31,453 nucleotides of DNA from a virus: IMG/VR virus record IMGVR_UViG_3300045922_001169, positions 1 to 31,453 of that record. One strand, written 5' to 3'. The position numbers and the translations under genes are program-made. How positions within the stretch are numbered: the stretch's first letter is position 1; each line of letters begins with the position of its first letter. A model generated the notes under the pieces. That model was not told the DNA's origin, did no database searches, and saw only the letters and a program-made list of their open reading frames with translations. Of this stretch, positions 1,773 to 31,453 are shown one piece after another.

Positions 1773-1803
1773 GTGAACTACCCCGCCGCTAAAGACGGCG
1801 GGG
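1773..1803 (-). repeat. TnpB element right end (palindromic hairpin)
   Basis: On the minus strand an 8-bp stem CCCCGCCG/CGGCGGGG with loop TCTTTAG is followed by TAGTTCAC. This is the usual form of an IS200/IS605 right end, and the tnpB stop codon (TAG, 1778-1780) lies inside it. The same GTGAACTACC...GGCTTCT frame recurs at 20362-20398. Confidence 0.75.
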
Positions 1804-3031
1804 CTTCTTGGCTCAACGACTCCAACTTGCTTACTTGAATGCCGTTGATTTTATTCAAAACACTCAAAAAAGTAGAGGTCGAAATCTCCCCAAGCGTAAC
1901 TTTCCTATGTTCCATAGGTAGTTGTTTCATTGCTTCATCACGAATGCAAATGGCTGATTTGGTATCCCGATCCAATTCATATCCGCATTCGCATTGATAC
2001 AATCTGTTTTCCAGCGTAATCGCATTTTTCTTTCCACAACTAGGACATAGCTTTGTTGATGGGAAAAACTTGTTCACTTCAAGTGGAGTTGCTGCCTTGT
2101 TCTTCAAGTCAGCGAGGATTGCTCCAATACCTGAAAATTGAACCTTCTTCCCATGATTGCCACTATGCCAAGCGTGAATACTCTCGTCTTGAAAACAGAC
2201 ATACCGATAATTACTCGTAATCGCATTAACCAGTTTTTGTCTTATATCAGTCCTGCGATTGGTTAGTTTTGCATATTCCTTTTGTCGTTTAAGTTGGTCT
2301 TTGCATTTATTGTTGGATTTTGACTTTTTCCCTCGTCGCATTATCTTTCTGTCCAATCGTCGCAATCGCTTGCTCGGTTGGACTTGAAACTTAACCTTCA
2401 CACCATTACTGAAAGTCAGTTGTGTCTCACAACCAAAATCAATACCAATCACTGAGTCAGGAATGTCTTTGACTTCTGGCGAGGTGTAGGTCGTGATATG
2501 AATGTAGTAATCGCCTGCCTTCCGTATCAATGTCGCACAAGCAATCTCACCTTCAATTTGTTCCAGTCCTCTCACTCGCATCCATTGCTTCATACCTTGA
2601 AGTCTCACTTTTCCATTACGGATATAGTAGGAATTGTTGAACTGCTTGAGTGGGATGGAGTTGATTTGTCCTTTGAACTTTAGTTTTCCAACCTTATGTT
2701 CTTTTTCTTTCAACGCACTCAAACTCATCAACGAACCAAACAATCTTGTTTTGATACCTTGCTTCATTTGAGAAGTCAGGACACTCAACTTTCGTGTTTC
2801 GTATTCTTCACCTACTTTGACTGGAACTTGCTTGACAGTCGTGTCGGCATCATTGATATTTTCGTGAGCAAGACAATAGTTGTAGAACCACTTGGCTTCC
2901 TTGAACAAATCATCTAAACGCTTCCGAGCAGATTTGCTCAAATGAGAGCGGTCAATCTTGGCTTCCACTACTTTACAGCATTGGGATTGTCTTTTTTGTT
3001 GAGTAAGTTTTCTTCGAGTGAATCTATTCAT
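1778..3031 (-). CDS. tnpB: TnpB RNA-guided nuclease (IS200/IS605 OrfB family)
   Basis: 417 residues from the ATG at 3031 (an in-frame GTG lies one codon earlier). TnpB proteins are RNA-guided DNA nucleases, ancestral to Cas12, that promote retention of their element. The RuvC-like site looks complete: D198 in VIGIDFG, E283 in CFQDES, and the DRD motif at 354-356. The zinc finger is C329-x2-C332...C347-x-C349. The basic N-terminal part (1-60) matches the RNA-binding region of the family. Length is normal and there is no frameshift, so it is probably active. No tnpA lies beside it, so the element would need a transposase supplied in trans. TATAAT lies just upstream of the start. DRDTKSA replaces the more usual DRDxNAA. 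Confidence 0.9.
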   Translation of the reverse strand: MNRFTRRKLTQQKRQSQCCKVVEAKIDRSHLSKSARKRLDDLFKEAKWFYNYCLAHENINDADTTVKQVPVKVGEEYETRKLSVLTSQMKQGIKTRLFGSLMSLSALKEKEHKVGKLKFKGQINSIPLKQFNNSYYIRNGKVRLQGMKQWMRVRGLEQIEGEIACATLIRKAGDYYIHITTYTSPEVKDIPDSVIGIDFGCETQLTFSNGVKVKFQVQPSKRLRRLDRKIMRRGKKSKSNNKCKDQLKRQKEYAKLTNRRTDIRQKLVNAITSNYRYVCFQDESIHAWHSGNHGKKVQFSGIGAILADLKNKAATPLEVNKFFPSTKLCPSCGKKNAITLENRLYQCECGYELDRDTKSAICIRDEAMKQLPMEHRKVTLGEISTSTFLSVLNKINGIQVSKLESLSQEAPPSLAAG

Positions 3032-3185
3032 CACTATTATATAGTGTTACCATAGTAAATTTATTTGGTGTATTTGAAAAAAGTGTCAGGCATCTTTTGG
3101 GCAATTTCTAATCGTGCGATATTTGTCCAGCTTGAACCAGTTTAGATTAGCGGCAGTCCTATTTTGCCTTAAATTAGTCCTAAGA

Positions 3186-5962: not shown

Positions 5963-6217
5963 TTACGGCATTTTTTCATGGTGTTTGTAGGTCATTTTGC
6001 CATGATCTACCTTGCCGTCATCCTTCTTTGGCCCCATTTTCTGTAGGGCGTCGGCGGCTGTCGGCATGAAATATCCAGCCGGATAGTGGCTACGGATATA
6101 TCCATCAGGATAAGCCCAATGAGCTATACCCGCACGACGGAGCGCCGCCTCTGTAATTTCTTCGTACACAGGCAATTCTTTTTTGGTTTCACCACAAAAT
6201 TCGATAAATGTTTTCAT
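5963..6217 (-). CDS. Small phage protein with capsid-targeting-like N-terminus
   Basis: 84 residues, starting MKTFIEFCGETKKELPVYEE and ending in a His/Lys-rich tail (DHGKMTYKHHEKMP). The N-terminus is close to the T4 internal-protein targeting peptide that begins MKTYQEFIAEA. Its ATG overlaps the TGA of glutamate dehydrogenase (ATGA), so the two are translationally coupled. No catalytic domain is visible. It may be a virion component, but that rests only on the N-terminal resemblance. Confidence 0.65.
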   Translation of the reverse strand: MKTFIEFCGETKKELPVYEEITEAALRRAGIAHWAYPDGYIRSHYPAGYFMPTAADALQKMGPKKDDGKVDHGKMTYKHHEKMP

Positions 6218-7479
6218 CTTTGGAAGTATCCTTTGCTGCCCAGACAGATATTTGCATCATTGATTCGTTTTAGAGCCAACACATAAGCAGCCGTTCTGGG
6301 CGAAATTCCGTGTCTTAGGTGTAAACTCATAACCCGATTGGTTGCGTAATTCATCATTTCTTTTAGGTCCGAATCCACTTGTTGTAGGCTTCTTATCATT
6401 GCGGTTCTGTTTTGTAACCACTCAAAATAAGAAACAACCACGCCTCCTGCATTAGCTAAAATATCTGGAATTACAACTATTCCTTTTTCGTTCAAAATTG
6501 CATCGGCATCGTTCGTGGTTGGCCCGTTTGCCAACTCCAAAATTACCTTTGCTTTTACTTTTTCGGCATTATCTTTTGTTAACACATTTTCCACTGCCGC
6601 TGGAACGAGTATATCTACGTCCAAAGCCAACAATTCTTCATTGGTAATTGGAGTTCCTTCGCCCCACTCTTTGTGCCCATGCTCGTCCAGATGTTTTCTA
6701 CAAGCTGTTACATTTAAGCCGTTTTCGTGATATGTTGCACCGAACTCGTTTGACAGAGCAACGACCTTCAGGCCGCTTCTGAAGCATTTCTCGGCAAACC
6801 AATATCCTACTTTACCAAATCCCTGAATGGCAACTCGAATATCTTCCTTGTTAGAAGGAATATTCAATTTCGTCATATTGTTTTGGAGGATATTCTCAAG
6901 ACAGTAGTAGCCACCGTAACCTGTGGCAGAACTTCTACCTTCGATGCCTCCAAGAGCGACTGGTTTGCCCGTAATAATGTCTTTAGGGTGGCCGCTTTTA
7001 ATTCTCTTGTATTCGCTGTACATCCATCCCATGATTCGTTCGTCTGTATAAAGGTCTGGGGCTGGAACGTCTACATCGGGGCCAATAAAGTCAATCATGG
7101 CGGCGATATATGCTTTGCTTAATCTTTCTAATTCACGGTGGGATAATTTTGTAGCATCAACACAAATTCCACCTTTTGCTCCACCAAATGGAATTTTCAA
7201 GCAAGCACATTTGAAGGTCATCCACAAAGCCAATGCCTCGCAGTGTTCACGATCTACATGAGGGTGATAGCGAATTCCGCCTTTGAATGGACCGAGCGTG
7301 TTGTCGTACTGGCATCTATATGCCTTGTACATTTGAAGCGTCCCGTCATCGTGACGCATAGGAATAGTTACCGACAATGTTTTTTGTGGATATTGAAGAC
7401 GTTCCCAACTTTCGGGATCAATATCGGCGTATTCATAAGCAACTTCCAATTGCTTCTTGGCTTCATCAAGTATTGACAT
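6214..7479 (-). CDS. gdhA: Glutamate dehydrogenase, NAD(P)-dependent
   Basis: 421 residues, normal length for the hexameric family. It catalyses reversible reductive amination of 2-oxoglutarate with ammonia to glutamate. Substrate-binding and catalytic residues are in place: K66 (GPFKGG), K90, catalytic K102 (FGGAKGG) and D142 (PAPD). The C-terminal Rossmann domain begins around 212 with the QGFGKVG nucleotide loop, and the sequence ends in the usual helical region. Whether NADH or NADPH is used cannot be told. GAGAGGGG lies 7 nt before the ATG, but this site can be hidden in a 20-bp hairpin with a late-promoter box inside it. The gene is coupled by an ATGA overlap to the 84-residue gene. A complete, apparently functional GDH is unusual for a phage. 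Confidence 0.93.
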   Translation of the reverse strand: MSILDEAKKQLEVAYEYADIDPESWERLQYPQKTLSVTIPMRHDDGTLQMYKAYRCQYDNTLGPFKGGIRYHPHVDREHCEALALWMTFKCACLKIPFGGAKGGICVDATKLSHRELERLSKAYIAAMIDFIGPDVDVPAPDLYTDERIMGWMYSEYKRIKSGHPKDIITGKPVALGGIEGRSSATGYGGYYCLENILQNNMTKLNIPSNKEDIRVAIQGFGKVGYWFAEKCFRSGLKVVALSNEFGATYHENGLNVTACRKHLDEHGHKEWGEGTPITNEELLALDVDILVPAAVENVLTKDNAEKVKAKVILELANGPTTNDADAILNEKGIVVIPDILANAGGVVVSYFEWLQNRTAMIRSLQQVDSDLKEMMNYATNRVMSLHLRHGISPRTAAYVLALKRINDANICLGSKGYFQR

Positions 7480-7482
7480 GGA

Positions 7483-7540
7483 AAAACCCCTCTCACTAGA
7501 ATGGAATGGCTACCTTATTTATTCTAGTAAGAAGGGTTTT
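7483..7540 (-). promoter_or_regulatory. RBS-sequestering hairpin with an internal late promoter (T4 gene e type)
   Basis: The arms 7521-7540 and 7483-7502 pair over 20 bp with an 18-nt loop. On the minus-strand RNA every pair is Watson-Crick or G-U. On the plus strand three positions would be C-A mismatches, so the structure is made for the gdhA mRNA. The 3' arm contains its ribosome site (GAGAGGGG, 7494-7487). AATAAATA (7523-7516) spans the end of the 5' arm and the loop; T4-like spacing puts its start at about 7510, in the loop, giving an mRNA without the 5' arm. Confidence 0.65.
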
Positions 7541-7545
7541 AAGCG

Positions 7546-7566
7546 AATTCCATAAACTATGGAATT
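7546..7566. repeat. 9-bp perfect hairpin between genes
   Basis: AATTCCATA (7546-7554) and TATGGAATT (7558-7566) flank a 3-nt loop. It lies between the Pro-rich membrane protein gene and gdhA. There is no T run beyond it, so it is more likely an mRNA-processing or stability structure than a terminator. Confidence 0.4.
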
Positions 7567-7580
7567 ATTTGGCACAATCT

Positions 7581-7916
7581 TCAGCCGGGCCGACAACCGG
7601 GACAACTATCATCAATGTTCCGCCTAAATGGTCGTCTCTGCGGTTCTTGTGGTTGCGGCGGTGGTGTTGGCTGAGTTCTCGGTGGAACAGGATCAGCTTT
7701 TGGTGGAACGGGGTCCACTTTCGGCGGCGGATTTTCACTCTTCGGAAAATCCTGATTGTTTCTCCAACCGGGGTCTTCGTTTATCCAACTGTCAGACTTC
7801 TTTTCGCTATGCGGAAGAAATCTTGAGAAAAAACTTGGATTCGTCTTCTGTATATAGATAGTGGCATTGGCAAGTGCTAACAAAGCAACCATGCTGTAAA
7901 GGAAATTCCTATCCAT
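7581..7916 (-). CDS. Membrane-anchored proline-rich protein
   Basis: 111 residues. One hydrophobic segment (about 5-22, LYSMVALLALANATIYI) is followed by a hydrophilic, strongly Pro-rich region (65-95) with repeats such as PPKVDPVPPKADPVPP, and a short tail ending CPGCRPG. This is a bitopic or signal-anchored protein likely exposed outside the membrane; Pro-rich linkers often span the periplasm or cell wall. AGGAGG precedes the ATG. It diverges from the protease gene with only 25 bp between starts, so the promoters must lie inside the opposing genes. Architecture resembles the proteins at 15089 and 18454. Confidence 0.7.
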   Translation of the reverse strand: MDRNFLYSMVALLALANATIYIQKTNPSFFSRFLPHSEKKSDSWINEDPGWRNNQDFPKSENPPPKVDPVPPKADPVPPRTQPTPPPQPQEPQRRPFRRNIDDSCPGCRPG

Positions 7917-7941: not shown

Positions 7942-8781
7942 ATGAAATACTTCTTGTGTACTTTCTTGCTTGCGCTAGTAATCCCCGTGACTCTATTTAG
8001 TGGGGAACCTGATAAAAAACTTCATGAAATGGGCTTGTACCCTACTGTCAAATTGTCGTTCCAAACTTGCGACTGCCCCGTTTGTCGAGCAAATCCCGAA
8101 GAAAACAAATCTGTTGGTAGCGGTGTAATTATTCGTTCAGAAAAATCTTCTGGACAAATTTTCAAAGATAAGTATGTGAATGTGGTATTAACTGCTTCTC
8201 ATAACATTGAACACGCAAAACCGCCCATCAAGATTATGGTCGGCAAATACAAAGATTGGTCAGAAATTGATGGTTTTGATGAATTCACATCGGTTGTATA
8301 CGAAAAAGAAAAAGATTTGGATATTGCTGTGATGCTCTTCGTCAGTGACAAGCAAATGCCGGTGGCTAAATTGGGAATAGATAAAAAACTTTATCTGGGT
8401 GATAAAGTTATCAGATTTGGTTTTGGACTTGGAGATGACATTCGTTTTGATGAAGGCAAAATCACGTCTGTAAAAACGACCATTCCAGCAGGCATGAAAG
8501 GCAAAGGCAGAATGAATGCCCACACTGTCTTTGGCGATTCAGGCGGTCCTGTTTACGACGATGAATATAACGTCATTGGTATTACCCACGCTATTCGTAG
8601 CAACGGCATGTCTCTACTTACAGAACAGAGCTATTTCGCCCGTGTCAGCGATATTAAAACGTGGAATGAATCCATAAATAACAGTGTAGGATTTGTATAT
8701 AAAGCATCGGATAAGCTGCCAAGTGCTATTTTATTTAATTTGTGGCTATCGGATCATCAAATAATTGGAGAGAAAAAATGA
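7942..8781 (+). CDS. Exported trypsin-like serine protease
   Basis: 279 residues. The N-terminus (MKYFLCTFLLALVIPVTLFS) is a signal peptide. A chymotrypsin/trypsin-fold protease follows: GSGVIIR, catalytic H87 in TASHNI, D127 in KDLDIAV, and S200 in GDSGGPV. The oxyanion motif GDSGG is intact, so the enzyme is probably active. A CDCPVC cluster (43-48) suggests a disulfide or metal site. AAGGGA precedes the ATG. The stop overlaps the start of the Gln/Pro-rich gene (ATGA), suggesting co-production. Exported phage proteases of this kind are rare; cleavage of a host envelope protein or of the neighbouring gene product is possible but unproven. Confidence 0.87.
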   Translation: MKYFLCTFLLALVIPVTLFSGEPDKKLHEMGLYPTVKLSFQTCDCPVCRANPEENKSVGSGVIIRSEKSSGQIFKDKYVNVVLTASHNIEHAKPPIKIMVGKYKDWSEIDGFDEFTSVVYEKEKDLDIAVMLFVSDKQMPVAKLGIDKKLYLGDKVIRFGFGLGDDIRFDEGKITSVKTTIPAGMKGKGRMNAHTVFGDSGGPVYDDEYNVIGITHAIRSNGMSLLTEQSYFARVSDIKTWNESINNSVGFVYKASDKLPSAILFNLWLSDHQIIGEKK

Positions 8782-10670
8782 GAACTTTTCTTGAAGTCAT
8801 AGAACAAAGAAAGACAAATAAAGTTGCCCACGAATGCTTTAGCTTGATGGTCGAGCGGGGTATTAACCCGGTAAAATACGTTCTTTGGCTTCAAGAAACT
8901 AATGGTCTGAGCAATCCCAATATTATTCGTGAAAGCCAAGAATGGCTTACTTTAGAACTAGAAGAAATCAATGAAAGTCAAATCGCTCATGATCTTGGTT
9001 GGGCCGCTGGAAGTTTGCCACGTTGGGGATTAGGAGCCTTGAAAAAAGGCTTGGGCTGGGCCGCTGACCAAGCAAGCAGTTTTCTCCAAGGTGGCGGACA
9101 AGGTTTAGGTCAGGGCGTTGACCAAGCATTTAGCCGAGGAGGTATTCAGGGAAGCCCTATGTCTCCTACAGGCTTTTATGATACAGAAACTGGTCATTAT
9201 GTTAAATGGGCGGGCGAAGGTGAACCGGACCCATCCAAAAAGGATCAATGGAAAACAGTTGACCATGCTGGCAATGAAATTCCACCTAATTCCCCACCAC
9301 CACAGCAACAGCAACCCGGACAACAAGGTGGACAGGGCGGGCAACAGAGTCAGAACGGTCCACCACCGCAACCGCAAACAGGTGGTTCACCCGAACAAAT
9401 GGTGCAAGCCGCCATTCAATCGTTGCAGGATTTGTCTAAAAGAGCCAATCGTCATGGGTCTAAATTACAACAAGCAAATATTCAGCAGATGTTGTTTAAT
9501 TTGATTCAAACATTGCAAGACCCGAACTCGATGGCTCAACAACAGCCTGCCGGTACTGTACCGCCAGTTCGTCAGCCGCAACCACAGCCTCAGCCGCAGC
9601 TTCAGCCACAACCACAGCCACAACCACAAACTACGACGCCACCACAACAACAAACGAGTTGGACGGATCATGGGTTTGGTGGAGTATTGCGAAAGAAACT
9701 TTATGAAGTGAGAATTAAGAATCTTGCTGATAACCTTGTAAGCGCTAAGATTGATCCCGAATTGTTCGTAGATTGGTACATCAATGAGGGCATGAACAGT
9801 TCTCGATTTGATGAAGATTTCCGTCAATGGGCACACGGTCTATGGGGCGGTGTTAAAGGTATGTTTAATGGCAAAGGATTTACTGGTGGCTGGAACGAAG
9901 TAGATGATGATTATGACCGAGAAGCAGCCGAAAATACACTAAAGGCAATTCTGCCTTTGATGGGTAAAAACCCTCAGTTGGATCAACAATTGCAAGGGGT
10001 GAATAAAGCTCTCCGTGATTTCTTGTGGAATCAACAGAATGCTCAAGGTGGACAACAAAATCAAAATGGACAAGGGGCACAGGACGGACAAGGCGGACAA
10101 CAAAATCAAAATGGTCCAGTAACGGGCGCTCAAGCTGGCGATCAAGGTAACGGTCCAGTAACCGGAGGCGATACTTCGCAACAAGATACTCAAAATGCTG
10201 TTCAAGCAGCCAATGATGCCGGTGCTAATACCCAAGACCCACAAGAAATGGTTGATGCTATAGTTCAAGACTTGCTAAAGCCAAAAAAGAAGGGAAGAAA
10301 GAGCAGCTATGAGCGACAAGTCCAAACTGCATTGCAGGCTGATCCGTCTCTAAAAGACAAAATAGCCGAGGAAATCAAACAACAACTAACAGCTACAGGG
10401 AAAATTGATTACAAGGTTGTTTTGGCTAAGTTGGGATTGCCAGCACAACAACCAGCAGTTACTCCGACAGATAATGGAGCCGGACCTGTAACTGATGCCA
10501 ATAAACAACCTCAACCGCAAAATCCTGATAGAAATTATGACCCAGATGAAGATACTTTAAGACGCTGGGGCATGGAAAATACAGAGGCTAAACCAACTCT
10601 AAATGAAGATGAAGCCTTTTTAAAGTCCATCTACGGCACGGGCAAGAAAAAGGCTATTTGGTTTAACTAA
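8778..10670 (+). CDS. Gln/Pro-rich modular protein, possible virion or internal head protein
   Basis: 630 residues from the ATG at 8778, chosen because it overlaps the protease stop as ATGA and follows GGAGAG; the frame extends 12 codons upstream. N-terminus MRTFLEVIEQRK resembles capsid-targeting peptides. A helical module at 16-44 (INPVKYVLWLQETNG) recurs at about 317-338 (IDPELFVDWYINEG), pointing to an internal duplication. Linkers at 172-204, 264-292 and 425-480 are Gln, Pro, Gly and Asn rich; the third carries a 20-bp exact DNA direct repeat (10050-10069 and 10095-10114). Gly-rich amphipathic helices occupy about 75-120. No enzymatic domain is visible. It could be a structural or internal virion protein. 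Confidence 0.8.
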   Translation: MRTFLEVIEQRKTNKVAHECFSLMVERGINPVKYVLWLQETNGLSNPNIIRESQEWLTLELEEINESQIAHDLGWAAGSLPRWGLGALKKGLGWAADQASSFLQGGGQGLGQGVDQAFSRGGIQGSPMSPTGFYDTETGHYVKWAGEGEPDPSKKDQWKTVDHAGNEIPPNSPPPQQQQPGQQGGQGGQQSQNGPPPQPQTGGSPEQMVQAAIQSLQDLSKRANRHGSKLQQANIQQMLFNLIQTLQDPNSMAQQQPAGTVPPVRQPQPQPQPQLQPQPQPQPQTTTPPQQQTSWTDHGFGGVLRKKLYEVRIKNLADNLVSAKIDPELFVDWYINEGMNSSRFDEDFRQWAHGLWGGVKGMFNGKGFTGGWNEVDDDYDREAAENTLKAILPLMGKNPQLDQQLQGVNKALRDFLWNQQNAQGGQQNQNGQGAQDGQGGQQNQNGPVTGAQAGDQGNGPVTGGDTSQQDTQNAVQAANDAGANTQDPQEMVDAIVQDLLKPKKKGRKSSYERQVQTALQADPSLKDKIAEEIKQQLTATGKIDYKVVLAKLGLPAQQPAVTPTDNGAGPVTDANKQPQPQNPDRNYDPDEDTLRRWGMENTEAKPTLNEDEAFLKSIYGTGKKKAIWFN

Positions 10671-11901
10671 TCTCTTTCAAGAACTCGTAAATCAAGTTGG
10701 CTTCTTCTTTGTTTATCACTAAAGAAGGACGCAATCGAATTGACCTTTCTCCGCAAGGAAGAAGGGTCATTTTCTTTTTGGCCTTATCCAAGAATTTGTT
10801 TCGTGCCTCACGGTCTTCAAGGTCAAAAGCAATCATCAATCCTTTACCACGCACATTTTCCAAAGGCAACTCTTGTAGTTTTTCAAGAAGATATTTGCCG
10901 ACCTTTCGAGCGTTATCCACCAACTTTTCTTCTTTGATGATTTCGTTGATGATGGTGAATCGAACCATATCAACGATGTTGCCGCCCCAAGTAGAATTGA
11001 TACGGCTTTGTACATTAAATACATTCTTTTCTGCTGTGTCGATTCTTTCAGTAGAACAGAAACCGCAAACTTGAGTCTTCTTGCCAAAGCAGATCATGTC
11101 AGGGACAATACCGAAGTGCTGATAGGCCCACATTTTGCCGGTCATGCCGATTCCAGACTGTACTTCATCTAGGATCAACATGGCCTGATATTTATCAGCA
11201 AGGATTCTCAAGCTCTGGATATATTCTGGACTAAAATGGTTATCACCTCCTTCGCCCTGTACGGGTTCCAGAATAATCGCTGCAACTAAATTCGTCTTGA
11301 GAGCTTTTTCGGCCTGCTCTAAACTTTCAGACTCAAGTTTGCGAGTTTCCTCCACAGCCGGAAATTTCAAAGCCGGGTTTATAATTCTAGTCCAATTGAA
11401 CTTAGGAAACAAATCCGTCTTGTCCGGCAATGTGTTCGTCAATGATAGTGTGTATCCACTTCTGCCATGAAATGCTTGCTTTAAGTGAATAACATCTAAT
11501 TTATTCGTGTAGGGTTCTCCGATTCCTAGTATGTTTGCTTTCCAGTCGAATGCTGCCTTCAAAGCATTCTCTACGCCCAATGCACCACCTTCAATAAAGA
11601 AGAAGTGTGAGAAGTCTTTGGCGATTGACGCAAACGATGTAATAAATTCCAAATACTCTGGGACGTACACATCAGAGTTTGCAACCTTGTGAAGTGCAGC
11701 TTGTACAAGCCGATCTTTTTGAGCAACCAACTTGGGATGATTCCAACCTAGAGCTTGACTGGCGTATTGTGAATCACAATCCAAGTATTCATTCCCCTTG
11801 CGATCAACTACCCAGACGCCTTTGCTCTTTGATACGTCAATTTCAAATGCGTCGTGAGTGAGAATATATTTGCTCAATTTCTTTTTCATTTTTAAATCCA
11901 T
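10663..11901 (-). CDS. lat: L-lysine 6-aminotransferase (class III, PLP-dependent)
   Basis: 412 residues. It moves the epsilon-amino group of lysine to 2-oxoglutarate, giving glutamate and allysine, which cyclises to piperideine-6-carboxylate. Family signatures are FIEGGALGVENALKAAFDWK (102-121), AFHGRSGY, the PLP-binding aspartate D245 in LILDEVQSG, and the Schiff-base lysine in FGKKTQVCG (K274 or K275), a motif specific to lysine 6-aminotransferases. Length is slightly under that of bacterial LAT enzymes but no core block is missing. The stop overlaps the convergent Gln/Pro-rich gene by 8 bp, and the start overlaps the upstream 109-residue gene by 10 bp. An alternative start is the ATG at 11889. 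Very unusual cargo for a phage. Confidence 0.88.
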   Translation of the reverse strand: MDLKMKKKLSKYILTHDAFEIDVSKSKGVWVVDRKGNEYLDCDSQYASQALGWNHPKLVAQKDRLVQAALHKVANSDVYVPEYLEFITSFASIAKDFSHFFFIEGGALGVENALKAAFDWKANILGIGEPYTNKLDVIHLKQAFHGRSGYTLSLTNTLPDKTDLFPKFNWTRIINPALKFPAVEETRKLESESLEQAEKALKTNLVAAIILEPVQGEGGDNHFSPEYIQSLRILADKYQAMLILDEVQSGIGMTGKMWAYQHFGIVPDMICFGKKTQVCGFCSTERIDTAEKNVFNVQSRINSTWGGNIVDMVRFTIINEIIKEEKLVDNARKVGKYLLEKLQELPLENVRGKGLMIAFDLEDREARNKFLDKAKKKMTLLPCGERSIRLRPSLVINKEEANLIYEFLKEIS

Positions 11902-16031: not shown

Positions 16032-16244
16032 TTAACGTGGTGGTGTCGCCGGGGCTGCGGGTGCAGCTACTCCTGCACCGCCTGCGGGGGCCGCTCCACC
16101 GGGACCACCGGCCACACCGGATACCGTAACGCTAGATGGTCCCCGGACTTGAGGCTTCTTGGGTTTGCTTTTCCCTTCCTCTGCTTTGTCGTCTGCGACG
16201 AAGCCGCCCTCTTTTATCAATACATAGTCTTTGAATTTCAGCAT
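16032..16244 (-). CDS. Small Ala/Gly/Pro-rich phage protein, possible internal head protein
   Basis: 70 residues: MLKFKDYVLIKEGGFVADDK, a Lys-rich middle (KSKPKKPQVRGPSS), and a low-complexity tail of Ala, Gly and Pro. N-terminal KFKDYVLIKE matches the targeting-like motif of other small proteins here. There is no ribosome site; TCTAAATA followed by AATC lies directly before the ATG (box at 16249-16256), predicting a leaderless mRNA. Confidence 0.6.
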   Translation of the reverse strand: MLKFKDYVLIKEGGFVADDKAEEGKSKPKKPQVRGPSSVTVSGVAGGPGGAAPAGGAGVAAPAAPATPPR

Positions 16245-28662: not shown

Positions 28663-28901
28663 AACCAATATTTTCGAGCAGTTTCCAGATTCTCTTCGGA
28701 GATAATATACCCCGAAGCGTCTCCCACTACTGAATCCACAGAACAGTAAGGGCATAATGCCGTTTCGCCTTCATCTGTATATTCCTTAATTTCATTCGCA
28801 GGAAATACTTTACAACAAGAATAACAACCAGCCTTGCCGGAAATACCCAGCAAGGCTTTGTTTTTCATAGAGAAGTGCGATAATTGTCTATATCCGATCA
28901 T
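28659..28901 (-). CDS. Small zinc-binding protein downstream of the portal gene
   Basis: 80 residues with two cysteine pairs, CYSC (26-29) and CPYC (50-53) in ALCPYCSVDSVVGD, a treble-clef or zinc-ribbon pattern that I recall in small bacterial and phage proteins of unknown role. The ATG overlaps the portal stop (TAATG); an internal ATG (residue 12) is an alternative. Coupling to the portal gene suggests a role in head assembly or packaging, but this is positional inference only. Confidence 0.65.
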   Translation of the reverse strand: MIGYRQLSHFSMKNKALLGISGKAGCYSCCKVFPANEIKEYTDEGETALCPYCSVDSVVGDASGYIISEENLETARKYWF

Positions 28902-31453
28902 TAGTCTCCTACGCTGCGATCACGGTCCTCATGGTCTTGCTCGGAAGAATAATCTTGAATTTCCAAATCGAATTTCTTTATGTCGTCTTCGCTTGGGTCT
29001 TCGAGTTCTTGACCTTGTGGTGGTTGTTGCCCTTCTGGGGCCGGTGGTGGATTTCCATCCATTGGTGGCGTATCTGGTGCGTCTGCGGCTGGCGGCGGGG
29101 CACCCATCGGAGGCCCACCGGCAGGCGGCATTCCGCCCATATCGGGTGATAGTTGCGGAGCAGGACCACCAGCTTCGGCTCCCAATTCTTGACCCGGTTG
29201 CTCTTGGCCGGGAATACCAACACCCAAAATTGCTGGGTTTTGTGCCACAATTTGTAGCTTCAAATCTTCCAACTTCTGTAGCTTCAAGCGTGCCAACATC
29301 TCTTCAATTTCGTCTTCCGAGAACTTCAATATCAATCTGTAAATGTCATAATCGGACATTAACTGACCGCTCTTGAGTGTGCCTGCATTTGCATATCGAG
29401 CAGTGATGACTTCGTTTCTGGACAACTCACGCCAATCAGATGGCGGGGTCATCTTGATCTTTAGGTCTTCATAAGACTCTTCTGGAAAACCTCTTAATTG
29501 AAGGTGTCTTTCGGCAATCTCCATCAGGCCATTTTCAAAATGCCCTTGCAATCTTTCAATCATGCGGGCAAACTTAACGTCCTGAGCAGACAAAGTAATT
29601 CTCGTAGCATTGGTATCTTCATTGGAAAGATAATTCTTCGGGAAGTTCAATGCTGTGAACAATTTATTACGGAAATAAATTGCGTCGTCAATTTCGCCCA
29701 AGTTTTGGGCACCGGGCAATGTCTCAATACGAGTATTGGCATTCGGACGAATAGGAATCCAGTAATCCTCGTCCGCTGCCGGTGGTTGCCATCTTTCTTC
29801 AACCTGATTGGCTCCCGGCACACCCTTGTTATTTGCAACTTTTCGCTTGCGGAATTGATCCTTCAAACGATCCAAGAATGCTTCTGCCTTAAATGGCGGC
29901 AATTGCCCCACGTCAATGTAGAATACTCTTCTTTCTGGGGCACGAGTCAAACGATACACCACCATCGCATCTTCCATCAACCGAAGTTGGTGGGCAGGCG
30001 AACGGGCCGGTTCAATAAGCGATTGACCATAAGGATAGAATGTCTTTCTATCATCACCAATTCTCATGTGGCAAATTTGAGTGGCAGCAAATCGAATAGC
30101 CACAGATTGGTTAAGTTCAGATTCTGTCTGGTCTATTACAGGGCCAGAAGTAATTGCTTTATAATCTGGGCCTTCTTTTGATTGCTGATACTCTACCAAC
30201 TTGCCTCGAATAGTTTCGATGCGATACATTGTTTCTGGCGGCAAAGGAATAAGTTTCAAAATGCCGTCAGATGGCTTATCTGGATTGATAACGTATTCTA
30301 AGAACCAGTCGCCGTTGATAAGTAGGTTCTTAAACCACTTCCAAGAGTGTTCGTTGAGATTTAGCATCTTGCGATGCTTCATTGTGAAGTTAAGCTCTTT
30401 TACAACTTCTTCGTTTTTGCACTCGATTTTGAATATGTCGCCATCTTCATTTTTCTGACAATTGTGTACGATAGCAGAATCCGTAGCAAAACACATATGC
30501 TTCTCTACAGACAAATCGTATACATCAATCTCTGGTCCTTCTATGATCCCTACAACTCTGCGGGAATCCCTGTTCTGGGCAAGCGATTTAACTTCTTTTA
30601 GAGAGAATCCTTGTTTCCGCATCCAGCTATCGGCTGTCTTCCAATCATGTCCTAATGTCTTCGCTATTTGGCGAACAGACAAATCGGCAGCAACCATACG
30701 AACAACTTTGTTGGCCTTTTCAAACTCCTCAGAAGTTTTTCCAGATTTCCAATCCTCAACAAATTGTCGTTCGTGAATCCAACCTTTGTTGTGTGTGTAT
30801 ATTCTTGGGTATTGACCCGTCTTCAGTTTGGTTAGTGCTTGATTGGCAGGCAGACGATAGAAAGGCATAAGTTCGTCGCCAAAAGACAACTCTCCACAGG
30901 TTGTCCACGTTCCATTACGCTTGAGAATTCTGTGATCTGGTGTCGCAGTCAGCTTTTGACCATTATCAAAAATGATTTCGACCGTCTTGGCCTTCTTGAC
31001 CAAACGTGGGTTAAATGCCCAACCTAGTGAGTAGTCTTTCTTCTGGAAGTCGTAGCAGTAAACCAAGAATCGTTCATCTTTTTTGTTCTTGGCGAGCCAT
31101 TCTAAGGTGAAGTATCCGAAAGGTGTTGCTACAGGAGTATCGCCAGCCAAACATGCTTCGTCGGCCATTACGGTAAGAGCCATTTCAATTTCTGGGACGT
31201 TTCTGAGTCTTTCGTATTCTTTATATCGCATGGTGCGATTGTTAAGACTCGTAGTGTCAATCATGTCATAGGTTTGACGTAGATTGACCATGCCGCTGGG
31301 ACCACCACCGCCAGCGAATTCTCCACCAATTTGCAGGGCATCGGCCTGTGAGACACCGGCACCCGAAAGCTCCTTTTTGTCCCTTCTTCTCGCCAATGCA
31401 TCTTTTTCACTGGCGTAAGTGAATAACTTGAAAAAATCTGACCAAATAGGCAT
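28901..31453 (-). CDS. Portal protein, T4 gp20 type, with an in-frame intein
   Basis: 850 codons; the start ATG is the last codon of the window. After removal of the intein (residues 101-331) the portal would be 619 residues. The N-terminal extein has TYDMIDTTSLNNRTMRYKEY and EIEMALTVMADEA; the C-terminal extein continues CQKNEDGDIFKIECKNEEVV, then WFKNLLINGDWFLEYVIN, EDAMVVYRLTRAPERRVFYI and NYLSNEDTNATRITLSAQDV, as in gp20 portals of T4-like phages. The last 120 residues are Pro/Gly-rich. It forms the dodecameric DNA entry ring at one head vertex and nucleates assembly. The stop overlaps the next gene's start. Confidence 0.93.
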   Translation of the reverse strand: MPIWSDFFKLFTYASEKDALARRRDKKELSGAGVSQADALQIGGEFAGGGGPSGMVNLRQTYDMIDTTSLNNRTMRYKEYERLRNVPEIEMALTVMADEACLAGDTPVATPFGYFTLEWLAKNKKDERFLVYCYDFQKKDYSLGWAFNPRLVKKAKTVEIIFDNGQKLTATPDHRILKRNGTWTTCGELSFGDELMPFYRLPANQALTKLKTGQYPRIYTHNKGWIHERQFVEDWKSGKTSEEFEKANKVVRMVAADLSVRQIAKTLGHDWKTADSWMRKQGFSLKEVKSLAQNRDSRRVVGIIEGPEIDVYDLSVEKHMCFATDSAIVHNCQKNEDGDIFKIECKNEEVVKELNFTMKHRKMLNLNEHSWKWFKNLLINGDWFLEYVINPDKPSDGILKLIPLPPETMYRIETIRGKLVEYQQSKEGPDYKAITSGPVIDQTESELNQSVAIRFAATQICHMRIGDDRKTFYPYGQSLIEPARSPAHQLRLMEDAMVVYRLTRAPERRVFYIDVGQLPPFKAEAFLDRLKDQFRKRKVANNKGVPGANQVEERWQPPAADEDYWIPIRPNANTRIETLPGAQNLGEIDDAIYFRNKLFTALNFPKNYLSNEDTNATRITLSAQDVKFARMIERLQGHFENGLMEIAERHLQLRGFPEESYEDLKIKMTPPSDWRELSRNEVITARYANAGTLKSGQLMSDYDIYRLILKFSEDEIEEMLARLKLQKLEDLKLQIVAQNPAILGVGIPGQEQPGQELGAEAGGPAPQLSPDMGGMPPAGGPPMGAPPPAADAPDTPPMDGNPPPAPEGQQPPQGQELEDPSEDDIKKFDLEIQDYSSEQDHEDRDRSVGD
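30461..31153 (-). other. Intein in the portal protein, HTH insert and no LAGLIDADG
   Basis: 231 residues, C101 to N331 of the reading frame. Splicing blocks: block A CLAGDTPVATPFGYFTLEWL, block B TATPDH (T171, H174), block F VVGIIEGPEIDVYDLSVEKH, and the C-terminal VHN followed by extein C332. All nucleophiles are present, so splicing should work. The segment between blocks B and F (about 195-298) has no LAGLIDADG motif; it carries a helix-turn-helix-like stretch, LSVRQIAKTLGHDWKTADSW. It may be a mini-intein that lost its nuclease but kept a DNA-binding part. Confidence 0.85.

Follow-up and report, generated by a model that had tools for sequence, protein, structure and literature searches.

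The window, as we call the whole 31,453-nt stretch analysed here, comprises positions 1–31,453 of IMG/VR record IMGVR_UViG_3300045922_001169 and is a fragment of that virus record. Matches in PHROGs to a portal, a prohead protease and a major head protein identify it as part of a T4-like phage; the major head protein shares 79% identity with its counterpart in LR756511, an uncultured phage of 595 kb, and the gdhA-bearing relatives of the window range up to 532 kb in size. Open reading frames and gene starts were our own calls, made without a trained gene finder. The gdhA gene lies on the minus strand (6214–7479, with its ATG at 7479) and encodes a complete glutamate dehydrogenase (GDH) of 421 residues, matching both Pfam ELFV_dehydrog and ELFV_dehydrog_N; the nearest solved structures are hexameric GDHs (e.g. 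1gtm and 2tmg). Upstream of it is a small proline-rich gene of 111 residues (7581–7916, minus strand), which is co-directional with gdhA in all synteny partners; the shared order is divergent protease, small gene, gdhA. A second, small inverted repeat (AATTCCATA/TATGGAATT; 7546–7566, minus strand) lies 3' of the stop codon of the small gene in the window and in its relative L002; L004–L007 have a different sequence, ATTCGCAGTTGCGAAT, at this place. Phage-carried metabolic genes are usually described in terms of their presence alone, and a literature search confined to open-licence papers returned none on the control of a phage GDH.

The gdhA leader contains a long hairpin on the minus strand: the 5' arm (AAAACCCTTCTTACTAGAAT; 7521–7540) and the 3' arm (ATTCTAGTGAGAGGGGTTTT; 7483–7502) form 20 pairs about a loop of 18 nt (7503–7520) in the centroid fold. 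The segment from 7546 to 7477 folds at −27.6 kcal/mol (z = −5.98), and none of 200 shuffles was as good, confirming that the hairpin before gdhA, first proposed in an earlier note on this DNA, is real. The same note had assigned the fold to the gdhA mRNA on the grounds that the opposite strand would have three C-A mismatches. A base-by-base reading gives two G-U pairs, and hence two such mismatches; moreover, the opposite strand itself gives a good fold (−23.2 kcal/mol, z = −4.2) and the outer stems of the related loci L003–L005 have few or no G-U pairs, so the argument from G-U asymmetry is weak. The minus strand is better supported by the positions of the ribosome site, the AUG and a U-tract.

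There is a single Shine–Dalgarno (SD) sequence for gdhA (GAGAGGGG; 7487–7494, minus strand), located entirely within the 3' arm. Its computed probability of being unpaired is 0.001 in a long RNA and about 0.17 in an RNA whose 5' end is at −31/−32, and the computed cost of opening it falls from 19.5 kcal/mol to 6.0–6.4 kcal/mol, although at ~6 kcal/mol the short RNA is still not fully open. From its position and the computed folding, the SD would be sequestered by the hairpin in a long transcript and freer in one without the 5' arm, in agreement with the earlier note on both points.

The comparison set comprised 24 viral gdhA loci from a first scan and one from a second scan with a group alignment, the sole addition being a distant gdhA (L074) without the hairpin. 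A hairpin occupies the same place in six relatives from huge T4-like phages (L002–L006 and L023; 81–93% GDH identity), and in all six the SD is paired within the helix. The leader of L023 (genome G013) is the same as that of L003, and L005 and L006 have an identical hairpin sequence; counting the window, the set contains just five different hairpin sequences, which fall into two main groups, and the number of independent changes is therefore small. The fold z-scores are −6.0 for the window, −5.2 for L002, −8.7 for L003, −4.4 for L004 and −5.6 for both L005 and L006. The hairpin is missing from eighteen more distant phage gdhA leaders; L007 (78% GDH identity; z = +1.0), which is the closest relative outside the hairpin group, and the other distant leaders have no such fold (z from −2.1 to +1.6), and L007 is also without the TAAATA box discussed below. 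The earlier note had held that gdhA homologues lacking both hairpin and box would speak against its proposal: L007 is one such homologue and tells in part against it.

The MAFFT alignment of the leaders shifts the 5' arm by two columns, and pairs were therefore compared by anchoring each arm. Between the window and L002 on the one hand, and L003–L005 on the other, two pairs of the outer stem are changed on both arms (T-A to G-C, and C-G to T-A), which are compensatory changes of the kind that the earlier note had suggested looking for; in the L003 stem, one further pair is inserted. Chimaeras joining the 5' half of the window or L002 to the 3' half of L003–L005 fold at only −6 to −11 kcal/mol, compared with −22 to −32 kcal/mol for the native leaders. 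The reverse chimaeras (5' half of L003–L005, 3' half of the window or L002) still reach −13 to −22 kcal/mol, as G-U pairs rescue them, and the specificity of the arms for one another is thus one-sided. The matched changes on both arms indicate that the structure is conserved while the letters vary, and the hairpin appears to be maintained as a structure, not merely as a string of letters. A scan of viral contigs for the common TACTAGAATANNNTAGG core returned 62 stretches, among which GDH was encoded only at the two known gdhA leaders, and hairpins with an AGTT loop, considered as a possible repeated element, showed no enrichment in these phages.

The stem runs into a terminator-like tract of uridines (U5 in the window; 7482–7486, minus strand), which doubles as the spacer between SD and AUG. 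Every member of the hairpin group has U5–6 directly after the stem, then one or two C, then the AUG. Hairpin energies of −21 to −30 kcal/mol, with five or six T in eight positions in all members, fall within the range of the terminators found between convergent genes of these phages, where strong hairpins number 38 as against 2 in 121 shuffled segments. By energy and U-tract, the stem and its U5–6 are indistinguishable from the phages' own intrinsic terminators, and the likeness to an intrinsic (Rho-independent) terminator extends to the strong stem leading directly into the uridines and to the location after a co-directional gene. Unlike in an ordinary intrinsic terminator, the 3' arm of the gdhA hairpin also provides the following gene with its SD, and the arm and loop contain a promoter-like box. 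In a genome-wide ranking of hairpins before gene starts, many of the top ones were terminators with a separate SD, or lay before probable wrong starts; where a strong terminator immediately precedes another gene, that gene has an SD of its own 3' of the U-tract, and gdhA stands out in having one sequence serve as both terminator arm and SD.

The promoter-like box, AATAAATA (7516–7523, minus strand), is of T4-late-like type and is present as the earlier note had described it. Its predicted RNA start rests on the placement of such boxes elsewhere: in this phage group, TAAATA lies exactly 10–11 nt before an ATG at 32 of 100 sense sites, but at only 1 of 49 antisense sites, and TACATA and TATATA peak at the same distance. 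Boxes at this spacing include those at 16244 (minus strand) and 16278 (plus strand), with others in G005, G002, G006, G008 and further genomes. We infer that TA(A/C/T)ATA is a phage promoter core from which RNA starts 10–11 nt downstream; together with the T4-type spacing, the boxes 10–11 nt before AUG suggest that there are leaderless mRNAs in huge T4-like phages. Applied to gdhA, the same spacing predicts a start at 7510/7511, consistent with the transcript from about 7510, free of the 5' arm, that had been proposed before. A TAAATA beginning in the interval from −48 to −33 is seen in 1.0% of random genes. However, among the seven hairpin phages, the AATAAATA box is found only in the window and L002: there is no TA(A/C/T)ATA box near the arm in L003–L006 and L023, where the arm reads TAGAATATTG or TAGAATAATG. 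A −10-like TAGAAT (7521–7526, minus strand; −47 in the window) is present at −46/−47 in all hairpin genomes tested, and this putative promoter element is the only start candidate seen in the members that are without an internal TAAATA.

The nearest upstream promoter-like box is a further TAAATA, within CTAAATA (CACTAAATA in most genomes), at 7994–7999 on the minus strand, where it lies 5' of the small gene and inside the divergent protease gene, which keeps the codons TA-TTT-AG at this place. It stands at −83 to −89 relative to the small gene in 7/7 genomes, and is a likely source of RNA running into the hairpin. Another sequence, ATAATGTA, was considered as a promoter motif and rejected, its upstream sites being mostly the ends of other genes or unrelated. 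A division into TAAATA as early and CTATATA as late was likewise dropped: it rested on very few annotated proteins, and a search outward from T4 genes gave a mixed picture, with TA(A/C/T)ATA at several structural genes.

On balance, we lean, by a little, towards the interpretation that, in a single lineage of huge T4-like phages, a terminator-like, SD-masking hairpin insulates gdhA from upstream transcription, and that translation needs RNA born inside the hairpin. RNA from the upstream gene would meet an intrinsic-terminator-like element, a long stem and then U5–6, at which it may terminate; any read-through RNA would carry a closed ribosome site, the 3' arm being the sole SD of gdhA. Most translation of the gene would in that case come from RNA starting within the hairpin and without its 5' arm: in the window and L002, the TAAATA box is suitably placed for such an internal start at 7510/7511, and for the other members the conserved TAGAAT would be the sole candidate. 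In this way, the hairpin would uncouple gdhA from the small upstream gene, with a presumed effect on GDH synthesis. A stronger form, in which a nested 64-nt hairpin combines the terminator of the upstream gene with the promoter and ribosome site of the downstream gene, such that translation comes only from RNA born inside it, is put forward tentatively and seems to us rather less probable than not. The U-tract could be a mere spacer between SD and AUG, which would count against the favoured interpretation. If that interpretation is correct, a structure-conserved control element sits on a phage metabolic gene, and a huge phage uncouples its GDH from the neighbouring genes and ties its translation to the point at which the RNA begins. 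The comparative set, in which five different leaders show matched changes in the stem and one close relative has no hairpin, makes the idea directly testable with reporters.

On another account, the hairpin does no more than terminate transcription of the small upstream gene, as an ordinary intrinsic terminator, and its overlap with the gdhA SD reflects compact packing without regulatory meaning. In energy, stem and U-tract it looks like a typical terminator of these phages, and it lies 3' of a co-directional gene; yet genes elsewhere that have a strong terminator just before them keep an SD apart from it, beyond the U-tract, and the gdhA SD remains in the arm in every member even though the stem letters have changed. 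We regard this account as improbable. Control of the leader by a protein or metabolite, with the hairpin responding for example to a nitrogen signal or to a translational repressor made by the phage, would make sense for a target like gdhA, and a conserved small second inverted repeat lies nearby. An Rfam scan of 7300–7800, however, gave chance-level matches only and no family above threshold, and the letters of loop and stem are too variable for a known binding site; we think such control very improbable, and 'riboswitching', the term used in the earlier note, is a misnomer given that no ligand-binding RNA family matches.

The earlier note had itself likened the leader to that of T4 gene e, with early read-through RNA silent, a late promoter in the hairpin giving translatable RNA and GDH held back until late in infection. 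Inhibitory leader hairpins are known for T4 e (lysozyme), soc, 49 and I-TevI (PMC3014915, which cites McPheeters et al. 1986), and stems that hide the ribosome site of Aeh1 mobE and T4 segB are cited in the same paper. The gdhA hairpin resembles the gene e-type leaders in keeping the SD of the long RNA inside a helix, and resembles mobE and segB as a cis-acting stem closing a ribosome site in T4-like phages, although those two are homing endonuclease genes. It differs from the gene e type in being on a metabolic gene, in its U-tract directly after the stem, for which that plan has no need, and in that the box is not conserved along with the hairpin, being absent from 5/7 hairpin genomes. The masking of the SD and, in the window and L002, the placement of the box for a start at 7510/7511 agree with the T4 plan, whereas the absence of the box from L003–L006 and L023 and the terminator-like stem with U5–6, a possibility that the earlier note had not considered, do not.

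As to timing, a gp55-like late sigma gene is present in G004, G005, G006, G008 and G013 (the hairpin phages among these being G004, G005 and G013), and TA(A/C/T)ATA boxes precede several structural genes or operon heads (terminase, the capsid operon, gp13 and gp25), so late transcription from TAAATA is plausible. Against this, in some genomes TAAATA is found ahead of gp46- and gp41-like replication genes too, and its time class is therefore not fixed; moreover, the nearest upstream box is of the same TAAATA class and, at 7/7 genomes, better conserved than the one in the hairpin. The contrast between early read-through and a late start is consequently an assumption, the silent early and active late gdhA RNAs find no support in the sequence, and we consider a T4 gene e-type timing switch unlikely.

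Several further observations concern neighbouring genes and related phages. In a 150-aa gene (phrog_12793) seen in two phages (L030:2829, minus strand, a region equivalent to G005 82829, and G013 81840), the SD lies in a strong stem that ends at the ATG, is near-identical in the two phages and has no U-tract; this leader is the cleaner candidate for masking of the ribosome site. Near the gp55-like gene (L146; G013 50233, minus strand) lies a hairpin that resembles a terminator and has TAAATA in its loop, where relatives have TAGATA. Within the window, a class III aminotransferase gene (10663–11901, minus strand), whose product is closest to L-lysine 6-transaminase at just under the curated cut-off, lies a few genes away from gdhA in most related phages that were inspected, and the two enzymes may form a nitrogen pathway. 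A TnpB-like RNA-guided endonuclease gene (1778–3034, minus strand) was not seen in the genomes of the related phages used for comparison. Finally, the portal gene (28901–31453, minus strand) contains an apparent in-frame intein, from CLAGDTPV... to ...IVHNC, and the PHROGs portal match begins only at residue 332 of its product.
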